Shown here piece by piece: positions 2,838-35,114 of a stretch of 36,592 bases of DNA (position 1 is the first letter of the stretch; each line of letters begins with the position of its first letter). The translations under genes and the position numbers were made by a program. Origin of the DNA: Lachnospiraceae bacterium (GTDB lineage Bacteria; Bacillota; Clostridia; Lachnospirales; Lachnospiraceae); assembly GCA_017461775.1 (NCBI GenBank), contig JAFTXD010000075.1, positions 1 to 36,592 on the forward strand, given 5' to 3'. A model generated the notes under the pieces. That model saw only the letters and a list, made by a program, of their open reading frames with translations. It did not search any database and was not told where the DNA came from.

Positions 2838-2873
2838 ACCAATCATTCCTTTTATATTAATCTACAGAATAAC

Positions 2874-2900
2874 AATGGAGGCCACGGATGTGCCTCCATT
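2874..2900 (-). terminator. Hairpin between pyruvyl transferase and acyltransferase genes
   Basis: AATGGAGGC (2874-2882) is a perfect complement of GCCTCCATT (2892-2900), a 9-bp stem with a 9-nt loop. It lies between two minus-strand genes. The T-run after it on the minus strand is weak, so it may only partly stop transcription. Confidence 0.5.
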
Positions 2901-2918
2901 ATAAAAGTTAATTCTGAC

Positions 2919-3995
2919 TTAGTTTGTTATATGAGTATTCTCTTTTAGTATTAATCTCATATTTTCATATTTTCTCTTCATTTTATCCAGCGGATATGAT
3001 GTATTTTCACAGGATAAAACTGCGTCTAAAGCGGTGTCAAATTCGTCGATGCTACCGATAAAGCGGATAAAAGGAAGCTCCTTAATCCATTCATAAACGG
3101 CCTTCACCTTTCCGTTGGCGTTATTTAAAACTACGCAAGGGGTAGCTGTTATGGCAGCGAAAATCATCCCATGCAACCTATCAGTTACCACGAATTTCGC
3201 AGAGGCGAATTCGTCCAACTTTAAGAGGACTTCCTCTTCACGCCTCTTTTTCTTGATGTTGTAATTTACTACGGTGTCGGTTTCCTGTATCTTGATATCC
3301 TTTGATTTCGCTTCGATTTTTGCCTTTATGGAAAGCATGGTATCCTTATCAACAGACTTTTCCACATCACTTCTCATGCACAAAAGGCAATGGGAATCCC
3401 GGGAAGAAATCTTTGATGTATAAGGTAAATAACCAATAGCCATATCGGGGGCATAAATCGCACGTTTGGCACCGACAAAGCAAGTGGCATCGTTTAGTGA
3501 CCTCTGGTCTCTGAGAAAAATGTAAATGTCATCACATTTGCTGTAATATTCTTTGGAAACATTCTTTTCCTGCTGGCCATTAGCGTCATTCGAATAGGTA
3601 ATGGTTTGAGGAAGAATGATGATACGGTTGCTCCTAAAAATGGAAAGTATCTTCCGGACGGCGCGCTCCTCGTTCATCCAGATAGTGCCCAAATAGCCGC
3701 CGGCGTGTAAAAATACGGTATTGTCTTTTACGATGCTTTTGAGACGTTTGTCAGAATAATTCTTGATAAAGAAATTAGGTATCTCGACGATTTTATGTTC
3801 CGGCAGAATTTCTGCAAACATATTGTATTCTGCAAGCGCAAGTGCGTGGTCTCCAAGATTACCATGTTCAGGGGTATTTAGTATAAAGATAACATCATCC
3901 CTTGAAGCAGCTGACGCATATTTTCGGAAATGGAAAAGCCATCGATATTCCAGGTAAAGATACATATATATCTTTTTGGCAAATTTATTAATCAT
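2919..3995 (-). CDS. Polysaccharide pyruvyl transferase family protein
   Basis: A 358-aa protein of the polysaccharide pyruvyl transferase family (CsaB/EpsO-like fold). Members move a pyruvyl ketal from PEP to sugars, although many relatives have diverged. Visible family marks are GNLGDHALA near residue 46, FLHAGGYLG near residue 95, an APDMAIGY segment in the middle and VVTDRLHGMIFA towards the C-terminus, the conserved DRLHG block. The start is supported by GTGAGG five to six bases upstream. It is likely cytosolic and acts on a lipid-linked or nucleotide sugar. It lies away from the main polysaccharide operon, next to an acyltransferase, so the pair could decorate the same polymer; that link is inference. 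Confidence 0.87.
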   Translation of the reverse strand: MINKFAKKIYMYLYLEYRWLFHFRKYASAASRDDVIFILNTPEHGNLGDHALALAEYNMFAEILPEHKIVEIPNFFIKNYSDKRLKSIVKDNTVFLHAGGYLGTIWMNEERAVRKILSIFRSNRIIILPQTITYSNDANGQQEKNVSKEYYSKCDDIYIFLRDQRSLNDATCFVGAKRAIYAPDMAIGYLPYTSKISSRDSHCLLCMRSDVEKSVDKDTMLSIKAKIEAKSKDIKIQETDTVVNYNIKKKRREEEVLLKLDEFASAKFVVTDRLHGMIFAAITATPCVVLNNANGKVKAVYEWIKELPFIRFIGSIDEFDTALDAVLSCENTSYPLDKMKRKYENMRLILKENTHITN

Positions 3996-4129
3996 AGAAC
4001 CTCACGTTAGGTATAAGTATTTTAAATATAGACAAATTGACAGATACAAAAGAGTAATTACATTATGCCACAAAATTTGCGCTTTGTCATCTGCCTGAAT
4101 AATCATAATATGTGCAATAAAGCACAAAC

Positions 4130-4155
4130 AAAAAAGCCACGGGAAAACCCATGGC
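4130..4155 (-). terminator. Intrinsic terminator of precursor 3
   Basis: On the minus strand GCCATGGG pairs with CCCGTGGC (one G-U pair) around a TTTT loop and is followed by six T (4130-4135 complement). It begins eight bases after the stop of the small precursor gene, which supports that gene being a real transcription unit. Confidence 0.85.
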
Positions 4156-4162
4156 CTTCTTA

Positions 4163-4342
4163 TTAATCAATTTTCTCTACGTATCCGTCAGAACCGTTAT
4201 CAACTGATTCTCCGCTGTAAGAATACCATTTCTTTCCGTTCTGGTCTACACGAACCTCATCATACTTGGTGCTATAGCTATCACCATATTCAGTACAAGC
4301 GATTTCAACAGTCTCAATTGCAGGTGCAATCCAATTCTTCAT
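4163..4342 (-). CDS. RiPP precursor peptide 3 (short, acidic, Tyr/Ser-rich core)
   Basis: A 59-aa peptide gene that is easy to miss because of its size. Its first 20 residues match precursor 2 position for position: Trp4, Ala6, Pro7, Val12, Ile14, Thr17 and Gly20 (MKNWIAPAIETVEIACTEYG). This is the W-x-x-P...T leader expected for PqqD-guided lasso-type peptides. The remaining 39 residues are rich in Asp, Ser, Tyr and Gly, lack Cys and end in Asp. If Gly20 becomes residue 1, Asp28 is position 9, suitable for a nine-residue Gly-Asp ring. AAGGGAG lies ten bases before the ATG; a promoter candidate and a strong terminator bracket the gene. It lies downstream of the kinase at 4441-5358 and the cyclase at 5355-7286 on the same strand. 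The product structure is unknown. Confidence 0.82.
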   Translation of the reverse strand: MKNWIAPAIETVEIACTEYGDSYSTKYDEVRVDQNGKKWYSYSGESVDNGSDGYVEKID

Positions 4343-4388
4343 AACAACATAACTCCCTTCAAAATAAGTAATCCTTGTTTACAATCAG

Positions 4389-4417
4389 ATGATATCATTG
4401 AAAGGAGGGTGGTGCAA
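4389..4417 (-). promoter_or_regulatory. Candidate promoter of precursor 3
   Basis: On the minus strand TTGCAC (4412-4417) and TATCAT (4389-4394) are spaced by 17 bp, about 40 bp before the start codon. The -35 is weak, but it shares TTGC with the candidate promoters of the other two precursors. Confidence 0.4.
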
Positions 4418-4440
4418 TATATCTAACAAAAATGAAAGAT

Positions 4441-5358
4441 TTACGAAAGCAGAGTTTCGTTTATGAGCCGGGCAACGGCTGTGGTGGAGTCTCCCAAAGC
4501 CGGTCTGGTGATAACATACATATTTATATGGGATATGATATCCAGAAATAACTGCTTTCTCTGTGGGGAAAGTCCGAAGCGGTGGTATATTTCGCCGCGA
4601 TAGAGATTGTTGGTCAAAAAATGCAGCTTTTCAATCCCCTCAAGCTTCCGGAGACTGGGAGCACTGGTGGTGCCCACCGTGATAATAAACATATGGAGCA
4701 GCCGGTAGGTATTGCAGGAGTAATCATTATCCAGCTTTCGCGCATATTTTCCTCTGTGTTCATCAATGTATATGTATTTTTCGGGATGCGCATCTGCTTC
4801 GACGATATTGCGGCACAGCTTTTGCCAAGGAGGGCCGGGATGTAGAAATGCTTGTCCATCCTGATAGGAGACGGCAGAAATATCATCGGATAGAAAATCG
4901 TATCCCATATTCATCATATTAAAGGTAGTGGTAGATTTCCCGCTACCACTGCCACCGGATATAATAAATGCGCTGTCGTTACACCTTAGAGAACTGCCGT
5001 GGATAGGTAAAATGCCGCGCTGCATAAGGATTAAGGAAAATGCGGAGCCCAGCAAATAGGCAGTAATACTTTTGGCAGGAAGCGTAGGGTCTTCAATCCA
5101 GACATGGATAAGATTTCCTTTTTCGGTATAAAACAAAACCATGTCCTTTAGATAAAACCACATGACCTCCTCTGTAAGATAATCCACCTGTCCCCCATGA
5201 GCACTTTCCAGTACGGAGGCGGGGGGAGGGGTTAGCCGGATGGTAACATCAATATCCTGGGGAGAAAATGTCTCGCACAGCTCATTCGCTTCCTGCAGGG
5301 GAAGCTCTGAGGATACCGTCAGACCGTATAGTTTGTAATAGTAATTTGGGGTTGTCAT
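4441..5358 (-). CDS. HPr kinase-like serine kinase 1 of RiPP locus
   Basis: A 305-aa protein of the HPr kinase-like family found in lasso peptide clusters, where the characterised relatives phosphorylate a Ser of the precursor. The N-terminus (YYYKLYGLTVSSE) matches the small N-domain of its two paralogs in this locus. The Walker A loop GGSGSGKST is near residues 134-142, followed by FLSDD, the HPr kinase acidic motif, and by PPWQKLCRN. Its ATG overlaps the stop of the upstream cyclase (ATGA), so the two are translationally coupled. Precursor 3 follows. All visible catalytic residues are intact. The exact target Ser/Thr is unknown. Confidence 0.85.
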   Translation of the reverse strand: MTTPNYYYKLYGLTVSSELPLQEANELCETFSPQDIDVTIRLTPPPASVLESAHGGQVDYLTEEVMWFYLKDMVLFYTEKGNLIHVWIEDPTLPAKSITAYLLGSAFSLILMQRGILPIHGSSLRCNDSAFIISGGSGSGKSTTTFNMMNMGYDFLSDDISAVSYQDGQAFLHPGPPWQKLCRNIVEADAHPEKYIYIDEHRGKYARKLDNDYSCNTYRLLHMFIITVGTTSAPSLRKLEGIEKLHFLTNNLYRGEIYHRFGLSPQRKQLFLDIISHINMYVITRPALGDSTTAVARLINETLLS

Positions 5359-7286
5359 GGCTTATCACCAATCCTTTCCTGAGCATATTCCAAATAAACT
5401 GCAGCAGTATACAGAGTATAAACCTTCTGGAGCAGCTCCTCGGTGAGTGTCTCGGAGGTGGTTTCTCTGACTGCATTTATAATTTCATCGTAGACTTTGG
5501 TATTAACCAGTTCTTTTAAGGCAGGGGACTGTACCGTGCTGAGCAATAGTGGCTTTACCCTGTCCCAGTTCATCTGGACACGCAGCAGCGCATCGGCACT
5601 CTGCAGGCCACGCTGGTGGACATTAAGGCGGATGGTGTCCGGGATGATGTCCTTCATATAAGTGCGTACCATGGCGCGCTCTATATGGCCTGCAACATAG
5701 CATTCGATAGGTAAACGGCAACAAAGCTCGATAAGACGCTTGTCCTTCAGAGGGTCGCGGATGAGCAGACCATACTGTAGTCCGAAGACTGTATCATACA
5801 TGCCCAGCTGTGCCAGACCCTGCGGAAAGAAGAGAAAATTCTTGCGTTCCTGCCAGGAATCCATATTTGCACCGCCGGAATGTCGGATGTTACCTTTGAT
5901 AAGAGCCAGGGTTTTGTATCCTTTCTGCAGCTCCGGCCGCGCAACGCCTTGGTTCTCCATTTTTGGGGGCCGCAGACGGTCAAGGTAATATGCTGAGAAT
6001 GTTTTTGCGGCCAGCTTCTTGGAGACCCGATTCTTATGGCAAAAATCCGCCAAGGTGGAATAGGCCTTGAGGGGATGAAGGTCAGCAAGCTGCTGGTATA
6101 CAACGGACATAACATTTCCGTAGGATATGGTTGCATTTCCGTATTGCCCCTTTAACAGTAATTTACAATTGTCAGTGGCCGCAGTTTTGTATATTTCATC
6201 CAGCCATACAAGATTTTGCATGGATTTGGAAGGTATTCCAAGAGAAAAGGTAATGCGTCTTAACTCCTCGATGGAGTTTTTGCCATCACAATCTATATAG
6301 GTTGGAAGAATATTCGTATGTAGCTTACAGATTTCCTCTACACCCGGTTTTTCATTGGTGATATAAAAGCTACCCAAATCATTTTTGTATTCCTTTAAAG
6401 GAATGGAGGTGTAGCTACGCAAGGAGCATTGTTTGTCCTTTAGCATGTCTGCGGCAATGCAAGCGACCGTAGAGGAATCCAGACCGCTGCTGAGTGTACA
6501 TCCCACTGTGGCACTTGGGCGCAGCAGGGAGCGAATGCTGGTTTTTACGGTATCAACCAAAAGCCTTTGATACTCGTCCTCCGTAGTATATATCTGCTCA
6601 TAGTCCGTTACTCTGGGGTCCCAATACTTGTGAAGTGTTACGCCGCTTGGGGTGAAGGAAAGATATTCACCGGCGCCCAATTGGAAAATGTCCTTGTACG
6701 GGGTGGCATGCTCCGCCACATTCATGTCCGCAGAATAGGTGCTTAAAAAGCCGGTCATCCATGCTTCACTGGTTGTGGTGGGCGCGATGGAAACCAAGGA
6801 ATCCATAATGGTGCTGAAGTATAAGGTGTCATTCACCAGCCGGTAAAAGATGCTACGGTTGGCCAGGTGGTCAGCATAGATATAACTGGATTTTGAAATG
6901 GTATCCGTCACTGCAAATGCAAAGGCACCACATACATGCTGGTGAAAGGAATTGCCCCATGTTCTATAGGCATGGTACAAAAGTTCGTGGTCGGATAAGC
7001 GGTCTATGTCAGGACACTGCAAGGTCAGTTCAGAACTGTTCGCCAGTTCGTCCGTATTGTCGATGAAAGCATCCGAAGCAAACAGGAGAGAGTCCTGTCC
7101 GATAGGGGCTGTGTCAGCAGTGTCTGAAAACAGATTTTGGCTACACATACCCATAATGGAGTAAGGCGTAGTGGCAACGGAATAATGATCAATTTTAAAA
7201 CGATGGTATGGTGTTTCCATGAGAGCCTTGACGCTTTGCATGGAGGGTAAAGCCTGATAGCTGATGCATCCCCAAATGGCTGACAT
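5355..7286 (-). CDS. Asparagine synthetase-like cyclase 1 (lasso C-type)
   Basis: A 643-aa AsnB-family protein. In lasso pathways such enzymes adenylate an Asp/Glu side chain and let the new N-terminal amine attack it. The protein starts MSAIWGC, so the glutaminase nucleophile Cys2 of true asparagine synthetase is missing and the N-terminal domain cannot release ammonia in the usual way. The synthetase domain keeps the ATP-binding loop SSGLDSS at about 265-271, and the KGQYGNATISYGN stretch near residue 380 resembles lasso cyclases. AAGGAGG lies before the ATG. It is only about 29% of a long minus-strand unit with kinase 1 and precursor 3, and is divergent from the PqqD gene. Its substrate among the three precursors is not known; precursor 3 is the closest on the same strand. 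Confidence 0.88.
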   Translation of the reverse strand: MSAIWGCISYQALPSMQSVKALMETPYHRFKIDHYSVATTPYSIMGMCSQNLFSDTADTAPIGQDSLLFASDAFIDNTDELANSSELTLQCPDIDRLSDHELLYHAYRTWGNSFHQHVCGAFAFAVTDTISKSSYIYADHLANRSIFYRLVNDTLYFSTIMDSLVSIAPTTTSEAWMTGFLSTYSADMNVAEHATPYKDIFQLGAGEYLSFTPSGVTLHKYWDPRVTDYEQIYTTEDEYQRLLVDTVKTSIRSLLRPSATVGCTLSSGLDSSTVACIAADMLKDKQCSLRSYTSIPLKEYKNDLGSFYITNEKPGVEEICKLHTNILPTYIDCDGKNSIEELRRITFSLGIPSKSMQNLVWLDEIYKTAATDNCKLLLKGQYGNATISYGNVMSVVYQQLADLHPLKAYSTLADFCHKNRVSKKLAAKTFSAYYLDRLRPPKMENQGVARPELQKGYKTLALIKGNIRHSGGANMDSWQERKNFLFFPQGLAQLGMYDTVFGLQYGLLIRDPLKDKRLIELCCRLPIECYVAGHIERAMVRTYMKDIIPDTIRLNVHQRGLQSADALLRVQMNWDRVKPLLLSTVQSPALKELVNTKVYDEIINAVRETTSETLTEELLQKVYTLYTAAVYLEYAQERIGDKP

Positions 7287-7316
7287 ATCCTTCCTCCTTA
7301 GATATAAACTGACCTT

Positions 7317-7322
7317 ATTATA
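7317..7322 (-). promoter_or_regulatory. Extended -10 promoter for cyclase 1
   Basis: On the minus strand TGCTATAAT gives a perfect -10 (7317-7322 complement) with the extended TGn motif; the -35 region (about 7340-7345, TTTCCC) is poor. It lies 31 bp before the cyclase start and is divergent from the PqqD promoter. Confidence 0.6.
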
Positions 7323-7365
7323 GCAAGGAAAATGAAAAAGGGAAATAAAAACGTACTATATGGAG

Positions 7366-7394
7366 TTGTTTTTTTGGGGTGTTTGATGTATTAT
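7366..7394 (+). promoter_or_regulatory. Candidate promoter of PqqD-like gene
   Basis: TTGTTT (7366-7371) and TATTAT (7389-7394) with a 17-bp spacer, 35 bp before the PqqD start. Divergent from the cyclase 1 promoter about 45 bp away, so the two may be co-regulated. Confidence 0.55.
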
Positions 7395-7429
7395 ATCGTT
7401 AGTACTATTTTTATGGGTGGAGGCTTACA

Positions 7430-7696
7430 ATGGATAGAAACACAGTTATTAAGATGACAAAGCAGTTAAATGTAACAGATCTTGCCGGCGAGAAAGTAAT
7501 GGTTGATTTCGCATCCGGTAAGTACTTTTTGATTAAGGGTGTAGGTAACGATATCTGGGATTTGATTCAGGAAGAAATTACAGTAGGTGGTATCATAGAT
7601 AAGCTTTTGGCAGAATACGAGGTCGCAGAGGAAGAATGTGAGAAGGCCGTATTGGAATTTCTTGGTAAGCTGAAGGAGTTGGATTTTATCGGCTAG
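7430..7696 (+). CDS. PqqD-like leader recognition protein (lasso B1 type)
   Basis: An 88-aa PqqD-family protein, the RiPP recognition element that binds precursor leaders and brings them to the processing enzymes. The sequence shows the family pattern: an N-terminal beta region, VMVDFASGKYFLIKGVGNDIWDLI (described here in parts: strand, turn, then helix near residues 23-46), then ITVGGIIDKLLAEY and a C-terminal helix ending in LKELDFIG. GGAGG is seven to eight bases before the ATG. It is the only such protein visible in the locus, so it probably serves all three precursors, which share the W-x-A-P leader. The peptidase (B2) that normally pairs with it is not next to it. Confidence 0.9.
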   Translation: MDRNTVIKMTKQLNVTDLAGEKVMVDFASGKYFLIKGVGNDIWDLIQEEITVGGIIDKLLAEYEVAEEECEKAVLEFLGKLKELDFIG

Positions 7697-7733
7697 AAAT
7701 GTGAGTGAAAATCTAACACTTATGATATATTTC

Positions 7734-7762
7734 TTGCAGTGGATACCGGAATAGGATATGCT
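7734..7762 (+). promoter_or_regulatory. Candidate promoter of precursor 1
   Basis: TTGCAG (7734-7739), 17-bp spacer, TATGCT (7757-7762), about 50 bp before the precursor ATG. The same arrangement (TTGCTG-17-TATGCT) precedes precursor 2, and the eight bases after the -10 are also similar. Confidence 0.5.
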
Positions 7763-7811
7763 GGTATCGTAAGTTTGTATAGTATTGTTTTTGTTATAGA
7801 GGAGAAATATT

Positions 7812-8045
7812 ATGAAGAAAGTGTGGAATGCACCTGAGGTTCAGGAGTTGACAATTCAGGCTACGGCAGGTCATGGCGGTAGTCATGGTGGCAGTCACGG
7901 CGGAAGCCATGGTGGCAGTCATGGCGGACAGCATGGCGGTGGGGCTACAGGCTCTGGTGATAGTAATGTATGTCGTTGTCAGGGGGGAACCAGTCCCTGC
8001 TCCAGACACCATAAGATGGGCGCTTTAGAGGATGAGCTTTCATAG
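7812..8045 (+). CDS. RiPP precursor peptide 1 (His-Gly repeat core)
   Basis: A 77-aa peptide with the shared leader: Trp5, Ala7, Pro8, Leu13, Ile15, Thr18, Ala19, Gly20. Thr18 is at -2 relative to Gly20, the usual place for the conserved lasso leader Thr. From His21 to Gly44 the core is six four-residue units: HGGS four times, then HGGQ and HGGG. A tail follows with CRC at 54-56, Cys63, HH at 66-67 and a final ELS. No Asp or Glu occurs before Asp50 (core position 31), so a normal lasso ring at core position 7-9 cannot form. Six regularly spaced His plus Cys/His in the tail suggest metal binding, an inference. GAGGAG is about eight bases upstream and a strong hairpin follows. It lies directly after the PqqD gene. 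Confidence 0.85.
   Translation: MKKVWNAPEVQELTIQATAGHGGSHGGSHGGSHGGSHGGQHGGGATGSGDSNVCRCQGGTSPCSRHHKMGALEDELS
7872..7943 (+). repeat. Six 12-bp in-frame repeats coding HGG(S/Q/G)
   Basis: Six tandem 12-bp units of the form CAYGGYGGNAGY code the repeat core of precursor 1. Third positions vary between units while the amino acids stay the same, which argues for selection on the peptide and not only recent slippage. Copy number could vary between strains. Confidence 0.9.
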
Positions 8046-8057
8046 TAGATTAAATTA

Positions 8058-8086
8058 ACCCGTGTGCGTAGAGTACGTACACGGGT
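8058..8086. terminator. Bidirectional hairpin terminator between convergent genes
   Basis: ACCCGTGTGCGT (8058-8069) pairs with ACGTACACGGGT (8075-8086), a 12-bp stem with one G-U pair and a five-base loop. It lies 12 bp after precursor 1 and 10 bp from the end of the convergent kinase-nucleotidyltransferase gene. T-rich sequence is modest on both sides. Confidence 0.75.
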
Positions 8087-8096
8087 ATTTGTATGT

Positions 8097-10142
8097 CTAG
8101 ATAAGCTGTAGCTGCCGTAGCAATCGGATGCGGTTTTGCAGTTTTTTATTGCTTTGGTATTTTAAGGGGACTCTCTTTTCCGGAACAGTGGTGCCATCGA
8201 AGGTGATGGTCTCTAAGGGGGTCCCGGTTTTATGTTCCAATTTCTGGATATAAGTCTCAAAGAAATAAAAGTTATCCCCCAGCGTTTCTTCGAAAGAACC
8301 GGCACCAAAGGTAAGGATATCCTGCAGGAGTGCTTCAATATCCTGTAGGGGGCAGAGTTCCCAGTCCCTCATAATTTCCCGTGGTAGCCCGAAGTAGTGC
8401 ACCAAACCGGTGAAAAGCTGTCTGCAAAAGCAAGCATATCCCAGCTCCGTCATGGCTTTGTGGAAGACTTCCCAATCGATTTCGTCATGGTATTTGCGGA
8501 TAAAGAGAGCGGTATCCGGCAGATATCTTGCAGGTAGCCCATAGTAGCAGATGTGCTTTACCATGTGGAATATCTGGTAAATAAGGTGCTGCGTGTGCCC
8601 CAGCGTACAGAGATTCATATTGCAGCAGTGTAGCGGGAGGAGTGTTTCTTTTGCAGATAGTTGCAGAGCTTTTAGCACCTCAAGCTCATGGCCGGCAGCA
8701 TCCTCAAAGAGGGAGGTATGCAGTTCGATTTTATGTATCATACCACCGTCTTTTTCGTAAATATAGGTGTATACATCCTCTGTATCCAAATCCGAAGCAT
8801 GGGAGTATTGCAGCTCTTTCAGCAAAGCGGTAAAGGCTTGCAGCTCTCTTGGACTTATCAAAATATCTGTGTCTGAGCTGCTGCGGAAGGTGAAGTCCTT
8901 GTACAGATCAGCAAGTACATATCCCTTAAAAAGGATGGGAGTAAGGCCCTGCGTTGCAGCTTTTTGGAGGAGCTTATTTATCAGCCCTTGCTTTTTGTAT
9001 TCTAAGATGACCCTGGCAGTGGCATCGCCTCTCCAGTCCCTTACCAGAAGGATATCCTCAGGAGTGTATATTTTCCAAGCTTCCAAGATGGGCAGCAGGA
9101 GTGTATCCAGCTTATTTAAGGTGGCGAAGAGGTATAAATCCTCTACAGTGATGGCAGAAACTACCTCTTTGGGTGGCATGGTAGTTTCTGCGATACACTT
9201 TAGTAGTGTCATATAGTGCTTAGTATTAAGGACGGTGTCGCAGCCCAAGGTAAGGTAGATGTATTTCTTGATTTGTGCCAGTGTATTTCTCTCATCAGGT
9301 CTGTTGATGCAGTGTACAGGACAGTCCTTGATGAAGTCCACGCAAAGCTGGAATGCTTCAGCGGACAGTCCGGTATTGGGTAGGAGGCAACCCAGGTAAA
9401 GGTTATCCACGATAAAGGAGACCTTGGCAAAGCCCTCCAAAGAGGAGAAGCGCAGAAGATCCTTTTCGTTTGTTTTAAGATAGTAGGCGGCATGGAGCTT
9501 TTGAGGCTCCGGAGAGAAGTGTTCATTATGCAGTACTGCAAACTTGTCCTTTTCCGGGTCTACATAAAGAAGCTCATCCAGATTGTAGCCCTGCTTCGTT
9601 GCAGCATCCCGGCAAAGCTTTTGTTGAGGGAATGCAGGATAGATGCAGGGCACATGATTTTCATCATATCCGATGGCAATTACATCATCGCTGAGCATCA
9701 GGGAACCATCCAAAATCAGTTCATTGGTGAGGGTGGATTTTCCGGCACCGCTGTCTCCGGCGATGATGATGCATTTGCCATCAATGCATACACTGCTGCA
9801 ATGGATAGTAAGGCGGTTGTGTAAGTGGGCATACATGGCGATGCCATAACCCAGCACATACTGAAGAAGATAAAAGGTGTCCTTGTCTGAAATGCTCTTG
9901 GCATAGATGGTACCGCTCTTATATACGGCCAGAATACCATAGGCATTGTTCATCCAGAAGCGCTCTTCGTTCCATGCGATGCAGGGGAAGATATCCGTAT
10001 TATGCACACACTCTGTTACCTCCTGTGGCATTTCATCAAGGATGATGTCCACATCAAAGGCAGCTGTTGCCGGGACTTTATAGAGCTGTTTGATTTCATA
10101 AGCACAACGGAAGGTGTAGCCAAAGACTTTGTAATAATACAT
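8097..10142 (-). CDS. HPr kinase-like / nucleotidyltransferase fusion protein
   Basis: A 681-aa protein with two parts. Residues 1 to about 300 are an HPr kinase-like domain with the MYYYKVFGYTF N-terminus, Walker A GDSGAGKST near 129-137, LMLSDD and PQQKLCRD. Residues about 315-681 match the uncharacterised nucleotidyltransferase family often found in lasso clusters: ILFKGYVLADLY, then FRSSSDTDILI, whose DxD should bind metal, then IELHTSLF. In other clusters kinase and nucleotidyltransferase are separate genes; here they are one chain, suggesting that a phosphate is added to a precursor Ser and then carries a second group. That sequence of steps is inference. AAGGAGG precedes the ATG. It is divergent from the ABC gene and convergent with precursor 1. 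Confidence 0.87.
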   Translation of the reverse strand: MYYYKVFGYTFRCAYEIKQLYKVPATAAFDVDIILDEMPQEVTECVHNTDIFPCIAWNEERFWMNNAYGILAVYKSGTIYAKSISDKDTFYLLQYVLGYGIAMYAHLHNRLTIHCSSVCIDGKCIIIAGDSGAGKSTLTNELILDGSLMLSDDVIAIGYDENHVPCIYPAFPQQKLCRDAATKQGYNLDELLYVDPEKDKFAVLHNEHFSPEPQKLHAAYYLKTNEKDLLRFSSLEGFAKVSFIVDNLYLGCLLPNTGLSAEAFQLCVDFIKDCPVHCINRPDERNTLAQIKKYIYLTLGCDTVLNTKHYMTLLKCIAETTMPPKEVVSAITVEDLYLFATLNKLDTLLLPILEAWKIYTPEDILLVRDWRGDATARVILEYKKQGLINKLLQKAATQGLTPILFKGYVLADLYKDFTFRSSSDTDILISPRELQAFTALLKELQYSHASDLDTEDVYTYIYEKDGGMIHKIELHTSLFEDAAGHELEVLKALQLSAKETLLPLHCCNMNLCTLGHTQHLIYQIFHMVKHICYYGLPARYLPDTALFIRKYHDEIDWEVFHKAMTELGYACFCRQLFTGLVHYFGLPREIMRDWELCPLQDIEALLQDILTFGAGSFEETLGDNFYFFETYIQKLEHKTGTPLETITFDGTTVPEKRVPLKYQSNKKLQNRIRLLRQLQLI

Positions 10143-10212
10143 AGGTATCCTCCTTAACTTTTCTTATGAATATAATACTAAAATATTTGCACCGTGATGT
10201 AAAGTAGTTACA

Positions 10213-10241
10213 TTGCAATATGTGGGTAAATATTGTATGAT
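10213..10241 (+). promoter_or_regulatory. Promoter of ABC transporter unit
   Basis: TTGCAA (10213-10218) and TATGAT (10236-10241) with a 17-bp spacer. The expected transcript start (about 10248) lies after a possible upstream TTG start at 10213, which therefore cannot be the translation start; ATG 10273 is used instead. Confidence 0.6.
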
Positions 10242-10272
10242 AATACAAATAATTACTATTGAGAGGCCGAGA

Positions 10273-11952
10273 ATGAATAAGCTAAAGAAATTGTGGAATG
10301 ACAGAGAAAATCAGATGCAATACGCGAAATGGCTGGTGGGTTATACAAAGCCTTATGTGAGCAGAATTATCGGCATTATGCTTTTGGGCATTCTGGTTTC
10401 TATGATTAGTGTGGGAATGTCGCTTCTGATGAAGCAGATTATCGACCGTGCACAGGCAGGGCAGCGAAGTGTACTTTATATTATAGTGCTCTACTTTGGG
10501 CTGGTTGTAGTTATGCAGGCAGTGGACATTGTACTTGTACTGGCCAGTACGATGCTCACGGAGCGATTTTCCTTCGGTATCAGAAAGCAGCTGTATGATA
10601 AAATTATCCGTTCCCACTGGATGGATGTAAAGCGCTACCATACGGGGGATTTGATGACCCGTATGACCAGTGACGCCGGAGCGATTGCGGATGGAATTAT
10701 CGGTACCATGCCGAATATTATTTCGCTTGCTGTGGAGCTCGTTGCGGTATTTGCCGTATTGTTTTATTACTCCCCGATGCTGGCTGTTTTTGCGCTGGTC
10801 ATTGCTCCGATTGCGGCTCTGATGGCGTGGTGGCTTGGACGTAAATTAAAGACATTGCAGGTGAAGGTGCAGGAGACGGAGTCTGCATATCGTTCCTTTA
10901 TGCAGGAGAGTCTGGCAAATCTTCTCATTGTGAAGGCGTTTGCCAATGAGAATTATTCTATGGAAAGGCTGACAGAGCTTCGCGAGCAAAGATTTTTCTG
11001 GGTATTTAAGAAGACAAAGTATGGTTTGGTTTCTTCTACCGTGATGGCTATGTCCTTTCAGCTTGGCTACATAGTGGCACTGACCTATGGTGCTATGCAG
11101 ATTGCGAACGGGCAGATTACCTATGGTACGATGTCTCTGTTTTTGACACTTGTGGGAAGGATACAGTCCCCCATCATGCAGCTGGCGCGGCAGATTCCCA
11201 AGGTAGTGGCAATATTAGCCTCTGCGGGACGAGTGATGGAGTTGCAGGATATTCCGAAGGAGGAATGTCTGCCGGAGCGGATGAATGCAGAGAGGGTAGG
11301 TGTAAAGGTTCAGAATCTCAGCTTTGGCTATACGGACGAGCTGGTGCTGCAGGATATAAATCTGGACATAAAGCCTGGCGAGTTTGTGGCCATTGTGGGT
11401 GAGTCGGGTATAGGAAAAACTACCTTGATACGACTGATGATGTCCTTTATGAAGTCGGCGCAGGGGACCATTACCTTTGTAAATCAGGATGGGGAAGAGG
11501 AGGCTGCCAATGCAGGCACCAGAGAATTTTTATCCTATGTTCCCCAAGGAAACACGCTGTTTAGCGGTACCATCCGGGAGAATATCCGTCAGGGTAACTT
11601 AAACGCTACGGAAGAAGAGATGATAGAGGCACTGAAGATGGCCTCTGCCTTTGATTTTGTCATGGAGCTGCCACAGGGGATTGATACCAGGATCGGTGAG
11701 CGGGGGCACGGTATTTCTGAGGGACAGGCCCAGCGTATCGCCATCGCCAGAGCTTTTGTGAGAAAGGCGCCGTTCCTTATTCTTGATGAGGCAACGTCTG
11801 CGCTGGATGAGAAGACGGAGATTAAGGTATTGCAGGGACTGCAGAGTCTGGAACCCAAGCCCACCTGTCTCATTATTACGCACAGGAAGAGTATCCTTGA
11901 GTATTGTGACAGGGAGATTAAGATAGAAAACAAGGGAACCATGGAAATTTAA
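10273..11952 (+). CDS. ABC exporter (lasso D type), transmembrane plus ATPase
   Basis: A 559-aa half-transporter that probably exports the mature peptides. The N-terminal half holds about six membrane helices starting at YVSRIIGIMLLGILVSMI. The ATPase half has Walker A GESGIGKTT near 376-384, a Q-loop YVPQGNTLFSG, the signature ISEGQ near 481-485 (in place of LSGGQ) and Walker B FLILDEATSALD, then a switch His in IITHR. No C39 peptidase domain sits in front of the membrane part, so it is not itself a leader protease. It begins a plus-strand unit with precursor 2, cyclase 2 and kinase 3. It is the only pump seen in the RiPP locus and so probably serves all products and gives self-protection. 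Confidence 0.9.
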   Translation: MNKLKKLWNDRENQMQYAKWLVGYTKPYVSRIIGIMLLGILVSMISVGMSLLMKQIIDRAQAGQRSVLYIIVLYFGLVVVMQAVDIVLVLASTMLTERFSFGIRKQLYDKIIRSHWMDVKRYHTGDLMTRMTSDAGAIADGIIGTMPNIISLAVELVAVFAVLFYYSPMLAVFALVIAPIAALMAWWLGRKLKTLQVKVQETESAYRSFMQESLANLLIVKAFANENYSMERLTELREQRFFWVFKKTKYGLVSSTVMAMSFQLGYIVALTYGAMQIANGQITYGTMSLFLTLVGRIQSPIMQLARQIPKVVAILASAGRVMELQDIPKEECLPERMNAERVGVKVQNLSFGYTDELVLQDINLDIKPGEFVAIVGESGIGKTTLIRLMMSFMKSAQGTITFVNQDGEEEAANAGTREFLSYVPQGNTLFSGTIRENIRQGNLNATEEEMIEALKMASAFDFVMELPQGIDTRIGERGHGISEGQAQRIAIARAFVRKAPFLILDEATSALDEKTEIKVLQGLQSLEPKPTCLIITHRKSILEYCDREIKIENKGTMEI

Positions 11953-12009
11953 TATAGTGGCAAGGGTGCGAGGCATTTTGATAGAATTCTTTCAAATGTG
12001 TTAGAAATG

Positions 12010-12038
12010 TTGCTGGAAAGGTAAAGCAGGTGTATGCT
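12010..12038 (+). promoter_or_regulatory. Candidate promoter of precursor 2
   Basis: TTGCTG (12010-12015), 17-bp spacer, TATGCT (12033-12038), 45 bp before the precursor start. Near-twin of the element before precursor 1, including a similar stretch after the -10. Confidence 0.5.
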
Positions 12039-12082
12039 TGCATCATCAACGAAAGCACAAACATTTAATGGAGGATATTAAA

Positions 12083-12244
12083 ATGAAGACTTGGAACGCA
12101 CCAGAAATGGTTGAACTTGACATTACTGAAACTGCTGACGGTTTATTCCCAGCTATGTACGAAGGTATCTTCGGTGATTGCCTTTGCGGTAACGATGCAA
12201 ACCATGGTCCTTTAACCGGACATCATACCTGCAAGCAGAGCTAA
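12083..12244 (+). CDS. RiPP precursor peptide 2 (likely lasso-type core with CxC/HH tail)
   Basis: A 53-aa peptide. The leader has Trp4, Ala6, Pro7, Leu12, Ile14, Thr17 and Gly20, in the same places as precursor 3. If Gly20 becomes residue 1, the core starts GLFPAMYE and Glu27 is position 8, which fits an eight-residue lasso ring. If cleavage follows the strict Thr(-2) rule, Asp19 would be residue 1 and Glu27 position 9. The tail has CLC at 33-35, HH at 47-48, Cys50 and a C-terminal Ser. The start is ATG 12083, nine bases after TGGAGGA; an upstream in-frame ATG at 12038 lacks a ribosome site and falls inside the candidate promoter. A terminator follows before cyclase 2, so the precursor can be made in excess. 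Confidence 0.85.
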   Translation: MKTWNAPEMVELDITETADGLFPAMYEGIFGDCLCGNDANHGPLTGHHTCKQS

Positions 12245-12263
12245 TTGATGTGAGGAAGCTAAG

Positions 12264-12302
12264 AACCTTTGCCTAATATTATATTGGGCAAGGGTTTTTT
12301 TT
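12264..12302 (+). terminator. Intrinsic terminator after precursor 2
   Basis: AACCTTTGCCT (12264-12274) pairs with GGGCAAGGGTT (12286-12296), an 11-bp stem with G-U pairs, followed by an eight-base T run. It lies between the precursor and its cyclase on the same strand. Leaky termination here would give more precursor than enzyme mRNA. Confidence 0.8.
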
Positions 12303-12434
12303 GTTATGACGATGAGGAAAATGGGCATCGTGCTTGCACGAATGAACATTTGCCGACCGCTAATCAGAGCGAGATTCGCAAAGCATATCTCGTCTCTGTT
12401 TTGGAAAATAAGGTTGAGTAGGGAAGGATATAAA

Positions 12435-14369
12435 ATGAGCGGAATATGTGGTATGTGGGCTCCGTTTGAGGAAAGGGTGCGGCGAGAGCAGGACATTAAC
12501 AGACTTATGCGTTGGAATAAGGCATATGGAAATGGGGCGGAGGAAGTATACGCAGATGGAAATATCTGCCTCGGCTTTTGCCGTGAGAGTTTTGCGGAAA
12601 CGAATAGTAGGAGTGCTCTCATTCTGAAAAAGAATAAAAAGTATGCGGTGATAGATGCATTAATCTATAATAGAGAAGAATTGCTGGACAAAGGGCAGTT
12701 TGAGGAAAAATTATCGGATGAAGAGTTACTATTTGATTATATCGAGAAATTCGGATTTGGAGAGCTTGAGAACGTTAATGGCGATTTTTGTGGCGCCATT
12801 TATGATGAGCAGGAGAAGGTACTAACACTTTTTCGTGATCACATGGGGGTCAGACCATTGTTTTATTATGCGAGGGATGGCATCGTTATGTTCTCCACCG
12901 ATATTCGCGGGATTGCCGGCATGGAGCAGGCAGAGATTTCTGTGAATGAGCAGTGGTTATGGGCAAGCACAAGCGGTTACGGTAATATGGGGCTGGAGAA
13001 CACAGAATTTGCTAATATTTTTTGTGTAAAGCCTGCGTCATATATGACATTTTCCCTACATGGTAGTGCAGTGCAGACAGAGAAGGTATCCTACTGGCAG
13101 CTTGGGAAGAAAAAAATACGCTTGTCTTCCGAAAAGGCGTATATTGAGAAAATGCGAGAGCTTATTACGGATTCTGTAAGGAGAAGGCTTGCTGCTGTAC
13201 CCGGTCTTGTGGGGGCGGAACTGTCCGGAGGGCTTGATTCCGGAGTGATAGATATATTAATCCATCGTTTGGGGCGTGAATGTGTTTACTATTCCTGGTC
13301 AGCTTCACCGGAGGAGATTCCTTTTGCGGAGAATGATGAAAGATTGGTTATTCAGGATATATGTGAGCAGGAAGGAATCGTTTGTAATTATGGAAAAAGC
13401 ACGGTGGAATTTAATGAAGAGAGTAATATTACCCAAAATATGCGGAAAATAGGAGCGGAGGGAGATATATCCGAGAGTGCGGCGAAAGTACTTGTATTGC
13501 CACCGTATATTAATACGCTACAGATATCTGCAACCTCTGAATTTGTAAACCGAAGCGGCGCGAGGGTGGTGTTCACGGGACATGGCGGAGATGAGGGTGT
13601 CAGTCATCGGTGCAATGCGTATGAGTTATTTTATCACAGGGAGTATTTACCGTATTTCAAACATATGTGGTCGACTACCGAGGGGGCTAAGAACAGGCTC
13701 AAGCGTATGCTTTCGGTATGCTACAGGAATTTGTCCGTTACGGCAAAGGAGCTGAAGGGGTATTATCAAAGCGGATTTGGCGTAAAGGATTTGCTGAGGA
13801 AGGACTTTTATCATAAATTTGATAATGTGGAGCGCATGTCGCTGAAATTTGCATATGATGCCAGAACATATGTTGAAGATGGCGGAAGTCGTAACCGTCT
13901 AGATGTGGCAGCACTATTGGGAGCTTATTCAGGGGCAAGATATATAATGCCCTATCTGGATTACAGAGTGATTGATTATGCAGTGTCCATCCCCAGACAT
14001 ATGTATCTGAAAAATAAGAAAAATCGATATATCTTCAGAGAGGCTTTTAAAGATATTATGCCGGAGTCACTTTATGTGCTGGACCGAAAATCGAGCCCCA
14101 GCTGGAGTAATCTTGTAAGAGAAGCCAAAAGCGAGGAGGAGCTGCTTGAGCAGAAGAGAAAGGTGCTGAACATGCTGGATAGAGAGCTCTGGGCAGAATA
14201 CTTGGATTGGGATGTAATGGAGAGGTGGGCGCAGCAAAAGAGTTCTGAAGAAGATGAGATGCGTAATCAGGGCGTATTTATGTGCATATCCAATTGCTTC
14301 CGATTCCAAAATATGGTAAGAGAAGCCAGACGTATGGGAAGAGACGTTTCCTGTGAGAAAGACGGTTAA
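12435..14369 (+). CDS. Asparagine synthetase-like cyclase 2 (lasso C-type)
   Basis: A 644-aa AsnB-family protein, nearly the same length as cyclase 1 but clearly diverged from it. It starts MSGICGMW, so residue 2 is Ser and the glutaminase nucleophile is absent, as in lasso cyclases and beta-lactam synthetase. The ATP loop is SGGLDSG at about 264-270, and FTGHGGDEG in the later part resembles the GxGGDE loop of the family. The start at 12435 follows AGGGAAGGA. A longer in-frame start at 12306 would lie directly behind the terminator and lacks family similarity. It is followed by kinase 3 and preceded by precursor 2, the most likely substrate by position. Confidence 0.88.
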   Translation: MSGICGMWAPFEERVRREQDINRLMRWNKAYGNGAEEVYADGNICLGFCRESFAETNSRSALILKKNKKYAVIDALIYNREELLDKGQFEEKLSDEELLFDYIEKFGFGELENVNGDFCGAIYDEQEKVLTLFRDHMGVRPLFYYARDGIVMFSTDIRGIAGMEQAEISVNEQWLWASTSGYGNMGLENTEFANIFCVKPASYMTFSLHGSAVQTEKVSYWQLGKKKIRLSSEKAYIEKMRELITDSVRRRLAAVPGLVGAELSGGLDSGVIDILIHRLGRECVYYSWSASPEEIPFAENDERLVIQDICEQEGIVCNYGKSTVEFNEESNITQNMRKIGAEGDISESAAKVLVLPPYINTLQISATSEFVNRSGARVVFTGHGGDEGVSHRCNAYELFYHREYLPYFKHMWSTTEGAKNRLKRMLSVCYRNLSVTAKELKGYYQSGFGVKDLLRKDFYHKFDNVERMSLKFAYDARTYVEDGGSRNRLDVAALLGAYSGARYIMPYLDYRVIDYAVSIPRHMYLKNKKNRYIFREAFKDIMPESLYVLDRKSSPSWSNLVREAKSEEELLEQKRKVLNMLDRELWAEYLDWDVMERWAQQKSSEEDEMRNQGVFMCISNCFRFQNMVREARRMGRDVSCEKDG

Positions 14370-14414
14370 AGCATGCTTTAATGAAGATATTTGTGTGAAG
14401 AGTAAGGAGTATCT

Positions 14415-15302
14415 ATGTATTATTATAGATTGTACGGCATGAAAATTGAAAGTGATTTGGAATTTCCCCAACTGGTGGTGTGTGAGGATGCACTGCCTGT
14501 GGATGTATGGATTGAGAAAACAGATTATTCTAAGGAAATGGATAACGAGCTGGAGGGCAGATTGTTTGATTTCGGCAGGGAATACAGCAGATTAATCAAC
14601 AGAACCTGTCAGTTACAGGTATTTCAGGGCAAAAAGCTCACCTATGCCCTTACCGGGGAAGGGTGGCCACAGTATCTTCAGACATACATTTTGGGATGGG
14701 GATTTTCTATGGTTGCTTTGCAGAGAGATTTATTGCCCATGCATTGCAGTGCTCTTGCGGATGATGATGGAGCAATCCTCATCGCAGGAGAGAGTGGTTC
14801 GGGAAAATCCACCATTACTACTCATTTCCTTAGTAATGGCTATCGTCTGCTTGCAGATGATATGGCGCTGGTGGATGGCGAGAAGGTGTATCCGGCATTT
14901 CCTTATCAAAAGCTGTGTAGGAATGTAGCATTGGATGAGGGATATAAGCTGGAGGAATTGATTTATATAGACGAGGATAAGGACAAGTTTTTGGCACCCT
15001 ACAGAGGTGAGTTTAAAACTTGTGGGGAGAGAATAAAGGGCTTTATTCTGCTTCGTGTGATAAATGGAGAGGAAGTGGTCGATACAGAGGTGCAGGGACT
15101 GGGGCGCTTTCACATTTTTGCAAGCAACCTGTTTGTAAGGCATCTTATCGGCAAGGACAAATACGAGCCTCACATCGGTCAGAAATGCCTGGAAATGGCT
15201 TCTAAGGTACCTGTTTACGTCATTGGCAGACCGGATGGGCTGGACACTACAGAAGAGGTGGTAAAAAAGGCTACCAAGTGGGTGGAGAGTATGAATACAT
15301 AA
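14415..15302 (+). CDS. HPr kinase-like serine kinase 3 of RiPP locus
   Basis: A 295-aa HPr kinase-like protein. N-terminus MYYYRLYGMKIESD, then PMHCSALADDDG, Walker A GESGSGKST at 125-133, RLLADD and PYQKLCRN followed by LIYIDEDKDKF, closely parallel to the two other kinases here. AAGGAGT lies six bases before the ATG. It ends the plus-strand unit with precursor 2 and cyclase 2, so precursor 2, with its C-terminal Ser, is the likely target. All visible nucleotide-binding residues are intact. A general HPr kinase for sugar regulation is unlikely because the N-domain and context differ. Confidence 0.87.
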   Translation: MYYYRLYGMKIESDLEFPQLVVCEDALPVDVWIEKTDYSKEMDNELEGRLFDFGREYSRLINRTCQLQVFQGKKLTYALTGEGWPQYLQTYILGWGFSMVALQRDLLPMHCSALADDDGAILIAGESGSGKSTITTHFLSNGYRLLADDMALVDGEKVYPAFPYQKLCRNVALDEGYKLEELIYIDEDKDKFLAPYRGEFKTCGERIKGFILLRVINGEEVVDTEVQGLGRFHIFASNLFVRHLIGKDKYEPHIGQKCLEMASKVPVYVIGRPDGLDTTEEVVKKATKWVESMNT

Positions 15303-15723: not shown

Positions 15724-16512
15724 TTAAAAAGTGGGTAACGTAACAGTGAAGGTGCTTCCGGCACCTTCTTTGCTTTTGCAGGAAACGCTTCCCCCATGTC
15801 TTTCCACAATGGCTTTCACGATGGCCAGCCCCAGTCCACTACCGGTAGCACCGCCCGGGGTGCGGGCTTTTGAGGCAGTGTAGGTGCGCTGGAACAGCTT
15901 TTCCAGAGCTTCCGGTGAGATTCCCTCTCCGGTATCTATCACGGAGATGACCAGCTGTTTTCCTTCCTCATGGGCCTTTAAGGTGATGCTGGAGCCTTCC
16001 GGAGTATATTTTGCTGCGTTGGTAAAGAGGTTGTCCAGTACGCGAATCAGCTTCTGGATATCCACCCGGATATTGCAGGAGAGGTCCTCCGGCAAATCCA
16101 GCAGCATGTCATGCTTGTCGTATCTGGTGTCCACAATGGCATCGTAGAAATATTCTTCCAGAAAGGGGGCAGCAGGCAGGGTGGTAAATTCCAGCTCTCT
16201 GCTGGTGTCCTCCACGCAGAATAGATAGTACATGTCCTGAATCATATTTTCCAGGGTTTTGGTACGTCTGTCGATAATCTGCAGGGTGGAATCCAAATCC
16301 TCCTTAGGCATTTTCTGTGAAGACAACAGCACATCCACGGCGCTGCGGATGGCAGTGATGGGCGCCCGCAAATCGTGGGAGATATTAGCCAGCATTTCAC
16401 TGCGCTCTTTTTGCATTTTCTGCAGCTCCGTATTGGCAATAAGGAGCTGGGCGGTCAGCTTTTCTATGGTCTCGCTCTCAATGGAGGGCGTCTGAAATTG
16501 ATTCTTTTCCAT
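15724..16512 (-). CDS. Soluble sensor histidine kinase
   Basis: A 262-aa histidine kinase. Residues about 10-40 look like a coiled coil, followed by the dimerisation box ISHDLRAP with His46 as the phosphorylation site. The ATPase part has the N-box DNLFTNAAKYTPEG, the G1 box VIDTGEGIS, and GSGLGLAIVKAIVERHGG. There is no membrane helix and no recognisable sensor domain, so it is cytosolic and its signal probably comes from a partner. The start at 16512 is eleven bases after the regulator stop with AAGGAAAAACC between; an in-frame upstream start would overlap the regulator and lacks a site. Its position between the RiPP and polysaccharide loci leaves the target open. Confidence 0.88.
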   Translation of the reverse strand: MEKNQFQTPSIESETIEKLTAQLLIANTELQKMQKERSEMLANISHDLRAPITAIRSAVDVLLSSQKMPKEDLDSTLQIIDRRTKTLENMIQDMYYLFCVEDTSRELEFTTLPAAPFLEEYFYDAIVDTRYDKHDMLLDLPEDLSCNIRVDIQKLIRVLDNLFTNAAKYTPEGSSITLKAHEEGKQLVISVIDTGEGISPEALEKLFQRTYTASKARTPGGATGSGLGLAIVKAIVERHGGSVSCKSKEGAGSTFTVTLPTF

Positions 16513-16522
16513 TGGTTTTTCC

Positions 16523-17209
16523 TTAATGGGCAATGAATTTGTAGCCCTTGGACCATACGGTCTCAATCATATTTTCCAGTTCATAGTTTCCTTCAAATTT
16601 CTTTCGCAGGCGGCTCACGTTCACCATGACGGAACGACGGTCCGCTTCCTGATAGGAGCCAAAAAGAGCGGTACCCAGTTCTTCGAAGGTGATTTCTTTA
16701 CCGGGATTGGAGGCCATGTACAAAAGCACCTCGTATTCACGGTTGGCAAGACCTAAATCCTCACCCTTAAAGAAAGCTTTGTGGGCCAGTTTATCAATGG
16801 TCAGGTTCTGGAAAGTAAGTACATTAGTGTTTTCCACAGGTGCTTCTTTCTTAAAACGGCGCAAAAGTACGTCAATACGTACCTTTACCTCTCGGATGCT
16901 GTAGGGCTTTACGATGTAATCGTCCGCCCCGGTCATCAGACCGTTTATTTTATCGTCCTCCGTATCCTTTCCGGTCAGGAAGATAATGGGAGCGGAGGTA
17001 AATTTGCGTAGCTCCTGGCAGACCTGGAAGCCATCCATGCCGGGCATCATTACATCCAACAAAATGCAGTCCGGGTTTACCTTTTTCGCCCCGGCAATCC
17101 CTTTCCCCGGGTCTGAGGAAATGTATACGGTGAAGCCTTCCTGGGTCAGGTATTTTTGGTTTAATTTTAACACTTCAATATCATCGTCAATCAGTAAAAG
17201 TGTAGCCAT
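16523..17209 (-). CDS. OmpR/PhoB-family response regulator
   Basis: A 228-aa two-domain regulator. The receiver has the acidic pair IDDD at 7-10, the phospho-acceptor Asp52 in LLDVMMPGMDG, a Thr in FLTGKD and the Lys in YIVKPYS. The C-terminal half is a winged helix ending VWSKGYKFIAH, typical of OmpR-type DNA binding. AAAGGAGG lies before the ATG. It forms a unit with the histidine kinase. Its strong promoter overlaps the divergent ugd promoter, so autoregulation by this protein could also change ugd expression. Confidence 0.92.
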   Translation of the reverse strand: MATLLLIDDDIEVLKLNQKYLTQEGFTVYISSDPGKGIAGAKKVNPDCILLDVMMPGMDGFQVCQELRKFTSAPIIFLTGKDTEDDKINGLMTGADDYIVKPYSIREVKVRIDVLLRRFKKEAPVENTNVLTFQNLTIDKLAHKAFFKGEDLGLANREYEVLLYMASNPGKEITFEELGTALFGSYQEADRRSVMVNVSRLRKKFEGNYELENMIETVWSKGYKFIAH

Positions 17210-18581: not shown

Positions 18582-18607
18582 TTACGAAAGAATTAGGGGG
18601 AAGGCAC

Positions 18608-20011: not shown

Positions 20012-20038
20012 AAGAGCTGATTTATATTGTTTTGTTGT

Positions 20039-20072
20039 AAATATCCACTGTGAAAGCAGTGGATATTTTTTT
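20039..20072 (+). terminator. Intrinsic terminator after ugd-transferase unit
   Basis: ATATCCACTG (20041-20050) pairs perfectly with CAGTGGATAT (20057-20066) with a six-base loop, followed by seven T. It separates ugd and the first transferase from the glycosyltransferase operon. Confidence 0.92.
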
Positions 20073-20108
20073 GTGTGGTGGTCAAAACAGAGAAGATTTT
20101 GTAAGTTA

Positions 20109-20137
20109 TTGAAAAGTATGGGCAGATTTGATAATAT
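20109..20137 (+). promoter_or_regulatory. Candidate promoter of glycosyltransferase operon
   Basis: TTGAAA (20109-20114) and TAATAT (20132-20137) are 17 bp apart, 37 bp before the next start and just after the terminator, so a new transcription unit starts here. Confidence 0.6.
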
Positions 20138-20173
20138 GAAATATGGGAAAAAAGTCCTAAAAAGGAGGGTGAA

Positions 20174-21148: not shown

Positions 21149-21154
21149 GTGACC

Positions 21155-23945: not shown

Positions 23946-23947
23946 AA

Positions 23948-25451: not shown

Positions 25452-25507
25452 GGTTTTTCCTTTCTGTGTGTTTTTGCTCATTTTATCATATGGAGGAGTT
25501 GTTCACA

Positions 25508-26581: not shown

Positions 26582-26586
26582 AATAT

Positions 26587-27678: not shown

Positions 27679-27702
27679 TTTGTAGGTGAATTGGTGACAA
27701 GA

Positions 27703-29124: not shown

Positions 29125-29134
29125 AGAGGTGTAT

Positions 29135-30157: not shown

Positions 30158-30185
30158 TGTACAAGGTTATTTTGGGAGAAAACAA

Positions 30186-31163: not shown

Positions 31164-31212
31164 AAGAACATGTATAATAGTAAGGGAAGTATGAAGAGGT
31201 ACTGGAGGGCTT

Positions 31213-33693: not shown

Positions 33694-33702
33694 GGAGTAC
33701 GA

Positions 33703-35106: not shown

Positions 35107-35114
35107 GAGGGTGT

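Follow-up and report, generated by a model that had tools for sequence, protein, structure and literature searches.

A 36,592-nucleotide contig of a Lachnospiraceae bacterium (JAFTXD010000075.1, assembly GCA_017461775.1; analysed at full length and called the window below) carries ten open genes at 4163-15302, arranged in several blocks on both strands. We read this locus, with confidence a little above even, as a composite paeninodin-like phosphopeptide cluster of the class of ribosomally synthesized and post-translationally modified peptides (RiPPs), in which one RiPP recognition element (RRE) and one exporter serve three precursors, and precursor C with its cyclase AsnB2 forms a transferable satellite. 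An initial annotation, made from the sequence alone, had listed three short genes with a common leader, two AsnB-like proteins of near-equal length, three HPr-kinase-like proteins, one PqqD-like protein and one ATP-binding cassette (ABC) exporter; all were located as claimed, and the interpretation attached to them is partly supported. The features are listed below (aa, amino acids).

4163-4342, minus strand: precursor A, 59 aa; WxxP leader, Gly20 ... Asp28 (G1...D9 spacing), last residue Asp
4127-4164, minus strand: terminator-like stem-loop of 17 pairs, 3' of precursor A
4441-5358, minus strand: HPrK-like kinase 1
5355-7286, minus strand: AsnB1, predicted lasso-type cyclase, 643 aa; classed by a sub-cut-off NF033535 match and tree position
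7430-7696, plus strand: PqqD-type RRE (B1); PF05402 E 1.5e-17, Trp-leader type by pocket residues
7812-8045, plus strand: precursor B, 77 aa; WxxP leader (WNAP), GGSH repeats, CRCxGGTSPCxxHH tail, C-terminal Ser
8058-8086, plus strand: terminator-like stem-loop of 13 pairs, 3' of precursor B
8097-10142, minus strand: HPrK-like kinase 2 in the N-terminal part, with NTP_transf_5 as fusion partner at residues 383-584 (about 8391-8996)
10273-11952, plus strand: MsbA-like ABC exporter of 559 aa, in which profile searches found no peptidase domain
12083-12244, plus strand: precursor C, 53 aa; WxxP leader, Gly20 ... Glu27 (G1...E8 spacing), C-terminal Ser
12261-12299, plus strand: terminator-like stem-loop of 18 pairs, between precursor C and AsnB2
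12435-14369, plus strand: AsnB2, second predicted lasso-type cyclase, 644 aa; classed by a sub-cut-off NF033535 match and its own clade (100/100)
14415-15302, plus strand: HPrK-like kinase 3
15724-17209, minus strand: histidine kinase and response regulator adjoining the cluster (Pfam)

All three precursors carry a WxxP-type leader. The pattern M-x2-4-W-x-A-P-x4-[LV]-x-I-x2-T was found in 3 of the 287 open frames of at least 35 aa in the window, these being precursors A, B and C, and in none of 60 order-2 Markov windows; having been drawn up post hoc from the three precursors, it measures rarity and is no blind prediction. With Gly taken as residue 1, the predicted cleavage, an acid lies 7-9 residues past the core Gly in precursors A (D9) and C (E8), and B is without one. 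The G1...D9 spacing of precursor A recurs beside AsnB1-type cyclases of relatives. In the window's precursor B neither Asp nor Glu occurs within the 30 residues that follow Thr-Ala, and this precursor is probably not a lasso. Full-length precursor B was found in 2 of 397 genomes, the window's own and G096 (another genus), and both versions keep CRCxGGTSPCxxHH and the last Ser; nine further weak, partial matches from the same search (E 6e-4 to 0.008) are excluded from this count. A match of precursor A to Ribosomal L31 (15.6 of 27 bits) was judged to be chance. The stem-loops 3' of the three precursors are the three longest of nine in the window, a number at chance level (8.4 expected), and a promoter scan of the window returned 18 hits, with 23.3 expected.

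The nearest solved chain to the PqqD-type protein is PbaB1, a Trp-reading RRE (9x90, E 5e-15). The window protein keeps the first pocket of PbaB1 in kind (V38, L59, Y63, V65, E69 and F77) and has K36 and A73 where the Tyr-reading LppB has Asn and Asp, and its pocket residues appear to fit a binder of Trp leaders. It scores 79.7 bits against the 80-bit cut-off of the NCBIfam model lasso_PqqD_Bac (NF033536). A PqqD match was obtained in 10 of the 14 genomes searched, exactly one in each, and these include six of the seven genomes with at least two of the cyclases placed in the trees (the window's own, G096, G115, G203, G681 and G699); none was found in the seventh, G285. This distribution points to the sharing of leader recognition and export that the initial annotation had proposed.

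Analysis of the kinases revealed an intact H...GxSGxGKS...DD motif, with its His, Lys and two Asp residues, in all three window proteins, while a C-terminal Ser is present on precursors B and C and not on A. The strict motif was found in 24 of the 25 kinases compared, the remaining one having Ala for Ser in the loop. Fused to kinase 2 is an NTP_transf_5 domain (PF14907, E 2e-29); the kinase part matches Hpr_kinase_C at E 9.6e-7, which is below its cut-off. In the kinase tree, kinase 2 and its G096 counterpart share a 100/100 branch, and kinase 3 falls in a group of ten (99/97), eight of them labelled with Ser-tailed partners, some partner labels being guessed by nearness (as in G285, with the kinase about 6 kb off, and G066, where a single cyclase accompanies two precursors and two kinases). 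We rejected a strict assignment of one kinase to each tail type: Ser-tail partners do cluster (4 of 500 shuffles gave as low a value), but five changes are needed, leaving a tendency only. Such kinases phosphorylate the C-terminal Ser in paeninodin and pseudomycoidin, where hexose addition needs the NTP_transf protein, according to the accessible part of PMC9266682. By analogy, kinase 3 may phosphorylate the C-terminal Ser of precursor C, and the kinase 2 fusion that of precursor B. The initial annotation suggested that three differently shaped peptides may be made, each with its own kinase; a kinase does lie near each precursor, whereas three cyclised pathways are not borne out, since there are two cyclases and precursor B of the window is without a ring acceptor.

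Both cyclases have Ser at position 2, leaving AsnB1 without the glutaminase Cys, and both keep the synthetase loop (SSGLDSS in AsnB1, SGGLDSG in AsnB2). AsnB2 was detected at E 1e-30 in 7 of 397 genomes of the family, or six including the window's once G087 was dropped (29% identity, sitting among large genes unlike RiPP loci; it served as outgroup in one of the two cyclase trees). At E 1e-60 it was detected in 4 of 373 genomes of the order, three of them new, and a search of 116 relatives of G096 returned two, both already counted. The resulting nine AsnB2 genomes form one clade, with 100/100 support in each of two trees (26 and 28 rows), while the AsnB1 side of the tree includes the cyclases of Priestia and Paenibacillus clusters that have PqqD and B2 peptidase genes. 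Judged by this placement, AsnB1 and AsnB2 are two deep lineages and not a recent pair. The window's genus had nine other genomes in the search of the order, none with an AsnB2 match, and the AsnB2 unit is therefore patchy. Two Moranbacteria loci from the AsnB2 contig search (25-27% identity) were not used, and plasmid searches returned distant AsnBs alone (294 and 197 records, all < 60% identity), three loci of which were used as references.

The precursors linked to AsnB2 were readable in eight cases (G045 was left out because its contig begins inside AsnB2). In all eight, Gly1 and Glu8 are the sole invariant residues of core positions 1-21, and the C-terminal residue is Ser. Among 19 further precursors, most of them Asp-type and next to AsnB1 homologues, one has a Ser tail (Fisher p 4e-6, on related sequences). 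That count is exclusive of three precursors of a W-x-G-x-[YF]-x-D type, five B-like or unclassified ones (three Ser-tailed) and the reference precursors, which end in Ser in Priestia and Paenibacillus and in Arg in B. fibrisolvens. The W-x-G-x-[YF]-x-D precursors continue as GGYIGDG-x-ISGH, end in Ser and lie beside AsnB1-side cyclases in three genomes (L028 9645-9845, L040 11732-11980, L041 8422-8625), representing a third precursor type. Separately, a methyltransferase-like gene, possibly encoding a tailoring enzyme, overlaps the end of the stand-alone AsnB2 of G699 (L059 10724-11491).

The same gene set, which the initial annotation had suggested seeking in relatives, is present with its order changed in G096. 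Identities to the window proteins are 55% for the fused kinase 2-NTP_transf, 53% for precursor B, 59% for AsnB2, 48% for kinase 3, 66% for the exporter, 61% for PqqD and 76% for the aligned part of precursor C; the AsnB1 homologue (29%) is accompanied by a kinase, and G096 additionally has a G1...D9 precursor and a B2 peptidase. Comparison of the precursor C core between window and G096 showed 27 of 28 residues identical despite 14 silent codon changes, which points to selection on the product, and the leader and tail of precursor B likewise keep their protein sequence with codons changed silently. The set is also partly together in G115. Consistent separation of the kinases and cyclases from the short genes in relatives would have counted against the initial annotation and is not what was seen, though the precursor C and AsnB2 pair does stand alone elsewhere. 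In G650, G699 and G681 this pair lies in 18-20 kb without PqqD, B2 or such an exporter, with a kinase in G650 only, and B2 and PqqD sit on other contigs. These three genomes, of a genus other than the window's, are probably Butyrivibrio, because the L064 precursor (G699) is identical to one listed for Butyrivibrio sp. MC2021 in the accessible part of PMC7533575. Since it lies on a different contig from PqqD and B2, the precursor C-AsnB2 unit has the appearance of a satellite cassette supplied in trans. In G650, locus L062 (4045-4242 and 9375-14750) combines two Cys/Pro-rich WxxP precursors with PqqD, B2, a kinase and an exporter; no cyclase was found within the 20 kb read there, and a cyclase-like match lies about 33 kb off.

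We propose that the Trp-leader-reading PqqD protein and the single exporter would serve precursors A, B and C. AsnB1 would close precursor A into a Gly1-Asp9 lasso. On precursor C, kinase 3 would phosphorylate the C-terminal Ser and AsnB2 would close a Gly1-Glu8 lasso. The kinase 2-NTP_transf_5 fusion would phosphorylate the C-terminal Ser of precursor B and then decorate the phosphate, probably with no cyclisation. The precursor C-AsnB2 unit would rely, as a transferable satellite, on a resident RRE, leader peptidase and exporter, with B2 assumed to be encoded off the contig. A wider and more tentative form of this proposal, to which we give rather less than even confidence, is that AsnB2-clade cyclases are plug-in modules, each with its own Gly1/Glu8/Ser-tail precursor and often a kinase and with no recognition, peptidase or export genes, that use a resident paeninodin-type pathway; in the window such a plug-in, an Asp9 pathway and a non-cyclised peptide would have condensed under one RRE. 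If so, one cell would make three phosphopeptide shapes from one recognition code.

Several observations weigh against the composite reading. Both AsnBs score far below the lasso cyclase model NF033535 (181 bits for AsnB1 and 190 for AsnB2, with a cut-off of 525), which was reached in none of the 12 genomes searched. Taking Gly as residue 1 puts the leader Thr at -3 and not at -2; predicted precursors of rumen Lachnospiraceae in the accessible part of PMC7533575 have a TAx-G layout too. Precursor A ends in Asp and not in Ser, so that no clear target for kinase 1 is seen. The G096 homologue of precursor B has Asp at 9 past Thr-Ala, and for that reason B may form a lasso in that genome. A Ser tail is also carried by three precursors beside AsnB1-side cyclases; on the sequences compared, this tail is thus universal in the AsnB2 group yet not special to it. 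G358 and G285 carry the AsnB2 unit, and neither PqqD nor B2 was found in them. B2, which the initial annotation named as a normal part of paeninodin clusters, was itself not found: 13 B2 queries, all of which find the B2 of G096 as a positive control, gave only short matches in the window (E 0.018 or worse). The B2 model exceeded its cut-off in 10 of 16 genomes and in 4 of 13 of a second set, with the window's own genome below cut-off, and the G096 B2 query matched in 7 of 10 genomes and not in that one. The hits below cut-off in the window's genome (PF13471, 22.3 of 26 bits; NF033537, 14-18 of 33 bits) we took to be other proteins of transglutaminase-like kind, or chance. We take a B2 encoded off the contig as the simplest account, the genome being 82% complete in 172 contigs. 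A group II intron reverse transcriptase/maturase gene lies at 454-1767, near the left contig end and with the locus 4 kb from that end; the intron may have broken the assembly there. Production of pseudomycoidin in vivo with neither leader nor leader peptidase is reported in the title of a paper cited in a review.

The alternative that survives best, though we consider it unlikely, is that AsnB2 is no lasso cyclase and forms an unthreaded Gly1-Glu8 amide ring, or another amide, without B2. Its long branch outside the sampled AsnB1 and Bacilli lasso cyclases would fit, as would the two AsnB2 genomes with no B2 or PqqD found; against it stand the same leader type, Gly1 with an acidic residue 8, the presence of the kinase and, in seven of the nine AsnB2 genomes, of an RRE. 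Less probable still is that the locus is a lasso cluster in decay, deprived of its B2 and without a product. The missing B2, the maturase gene close to the contig end and the lack of AsnB2 in the nine other genomes of the genus that were searched could be read in this way, but all ten genes are open, the kinase and synthetase motifs are intact, the protein sequences of precursor C and of the precursor B leader and tail are kept amid silent codon changes, and the genome is incomplete. That three independent pathways adjoin by coincidence, with separate recognition proteins and exporters encoded elsewhere, seems quite improbable: the several gene blocks on both strands and the solitary unit of some relatives would allow it, while the single PqqD of each PqqD-bearing genome and the recurrence of the set in a second genus speak against it. 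Recent duplication within one pathway, suggested by the near-equal AsnB lengths and similar leaders, has next to no probability and was ruled out by the cyclase and kinase trees, in which the window proteins fall in groups common to other genera; of the fusion or duplication envisaged by the initial annotation, separate pathways coming together is supported and duplication is not.

The composite cluster is flanked on both sides by capsule/exopolysaccharide-type genes (17349-36002 and 1863-3995), among them those for UDP-glucose dehydrogenase, two Bac_transf sugar transferases, glycosyltransferases, Wzz, EpsG, RmlD, a pyruvyl transferase and acyltransferases. The adjoining histidine kinase shows no sensor domain by Pfam; homologues of the kinase and/or the response regulator occur in 11 of 23 relative loci, and it is possible that the pair regulates the cluster.

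In its parts the locus appears to be of the paeninodin-type phosphorylated lasso cluster kind, though the curated cyclase and precursor cut-offs are missed (for the NCBIfam paeninodin precursor model NF033524, only precursor B matches, at 16 of 27 bits). With the paeninodin and pseudomycoidin clusters of Bacillota it has in common the WxxP leader, PqqD-type RRE, AsnB-like cyclase, HPrK-like kinase, NTP_transf protein, ABC exporter and capsule-gene neighbourhood. Unlike them, it groups three kinases and cyclases of two lineages about a single RRE, its kinase and NTP_transf are fused, and B2 was not found. The predicted lasso clusters of rumen Lachnospiraceae, in the accessible part of PMC7533575, resemble it in the precursor A-type leader, the G...D8-9 spacing and, close by, genes for an HPr kinase, a nucleotidyltransferase and a two-component system; that part has neither Glu8 precursors with AsnB2 nor a composite layout like the one seen here. 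Nor was the Glu8, C-terminal-Ser AsnB2 family or a lone precursor-cyclase unit met in open-licence titles and abstract openings, which is weak evidence of absence. Lone precursor-AsnB2 units would probably escape rules that require a B2 gene next to that of the cyclase, of which the lassopeptide rule in the accessible part of PMC13289728 is an example, and the Glu8, C-terminal-Ser type may for this reason be undercounted in gut and rumen bacteria.

Clusters for linear polyphosphorylated peptides (LPPs), as described in the accessible part of PMC13381572, are cyclase-free and lie beside paeninodin clusters in capsule loci. Their route through an RRE, HprK kinase, NTP transferase and MsbA-like exporter is a parallel for precursor B, for which the kinase-NTP fusion and exporter are present, but with two cyclases in the same locus. 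The LPP route has YxxP leaders, a dedicated RRE and a SipW-like peptidase, whereas the locus has WxxP leaders and one Trp-type RRE: precursor B has a WNAP leader, and the K36 and A73 of PqqD do not match a Tyr-reading RRE. No signal peptidase family was found among the ten cluster genes and most window frames of at least 150 aa, the scope of that search being the window and not the rest of the genome. According to the same part of PMC13381572 (2026), LPP and paeninodin pathways, which reside together and have similar leaders, are kept apart by separate, discriminating RREs that read YxxP and WxxP codes. The locus suggests the opposite, with three core types under one RRE, and would let the combining of RiPP pathways through sharing be tested directly.

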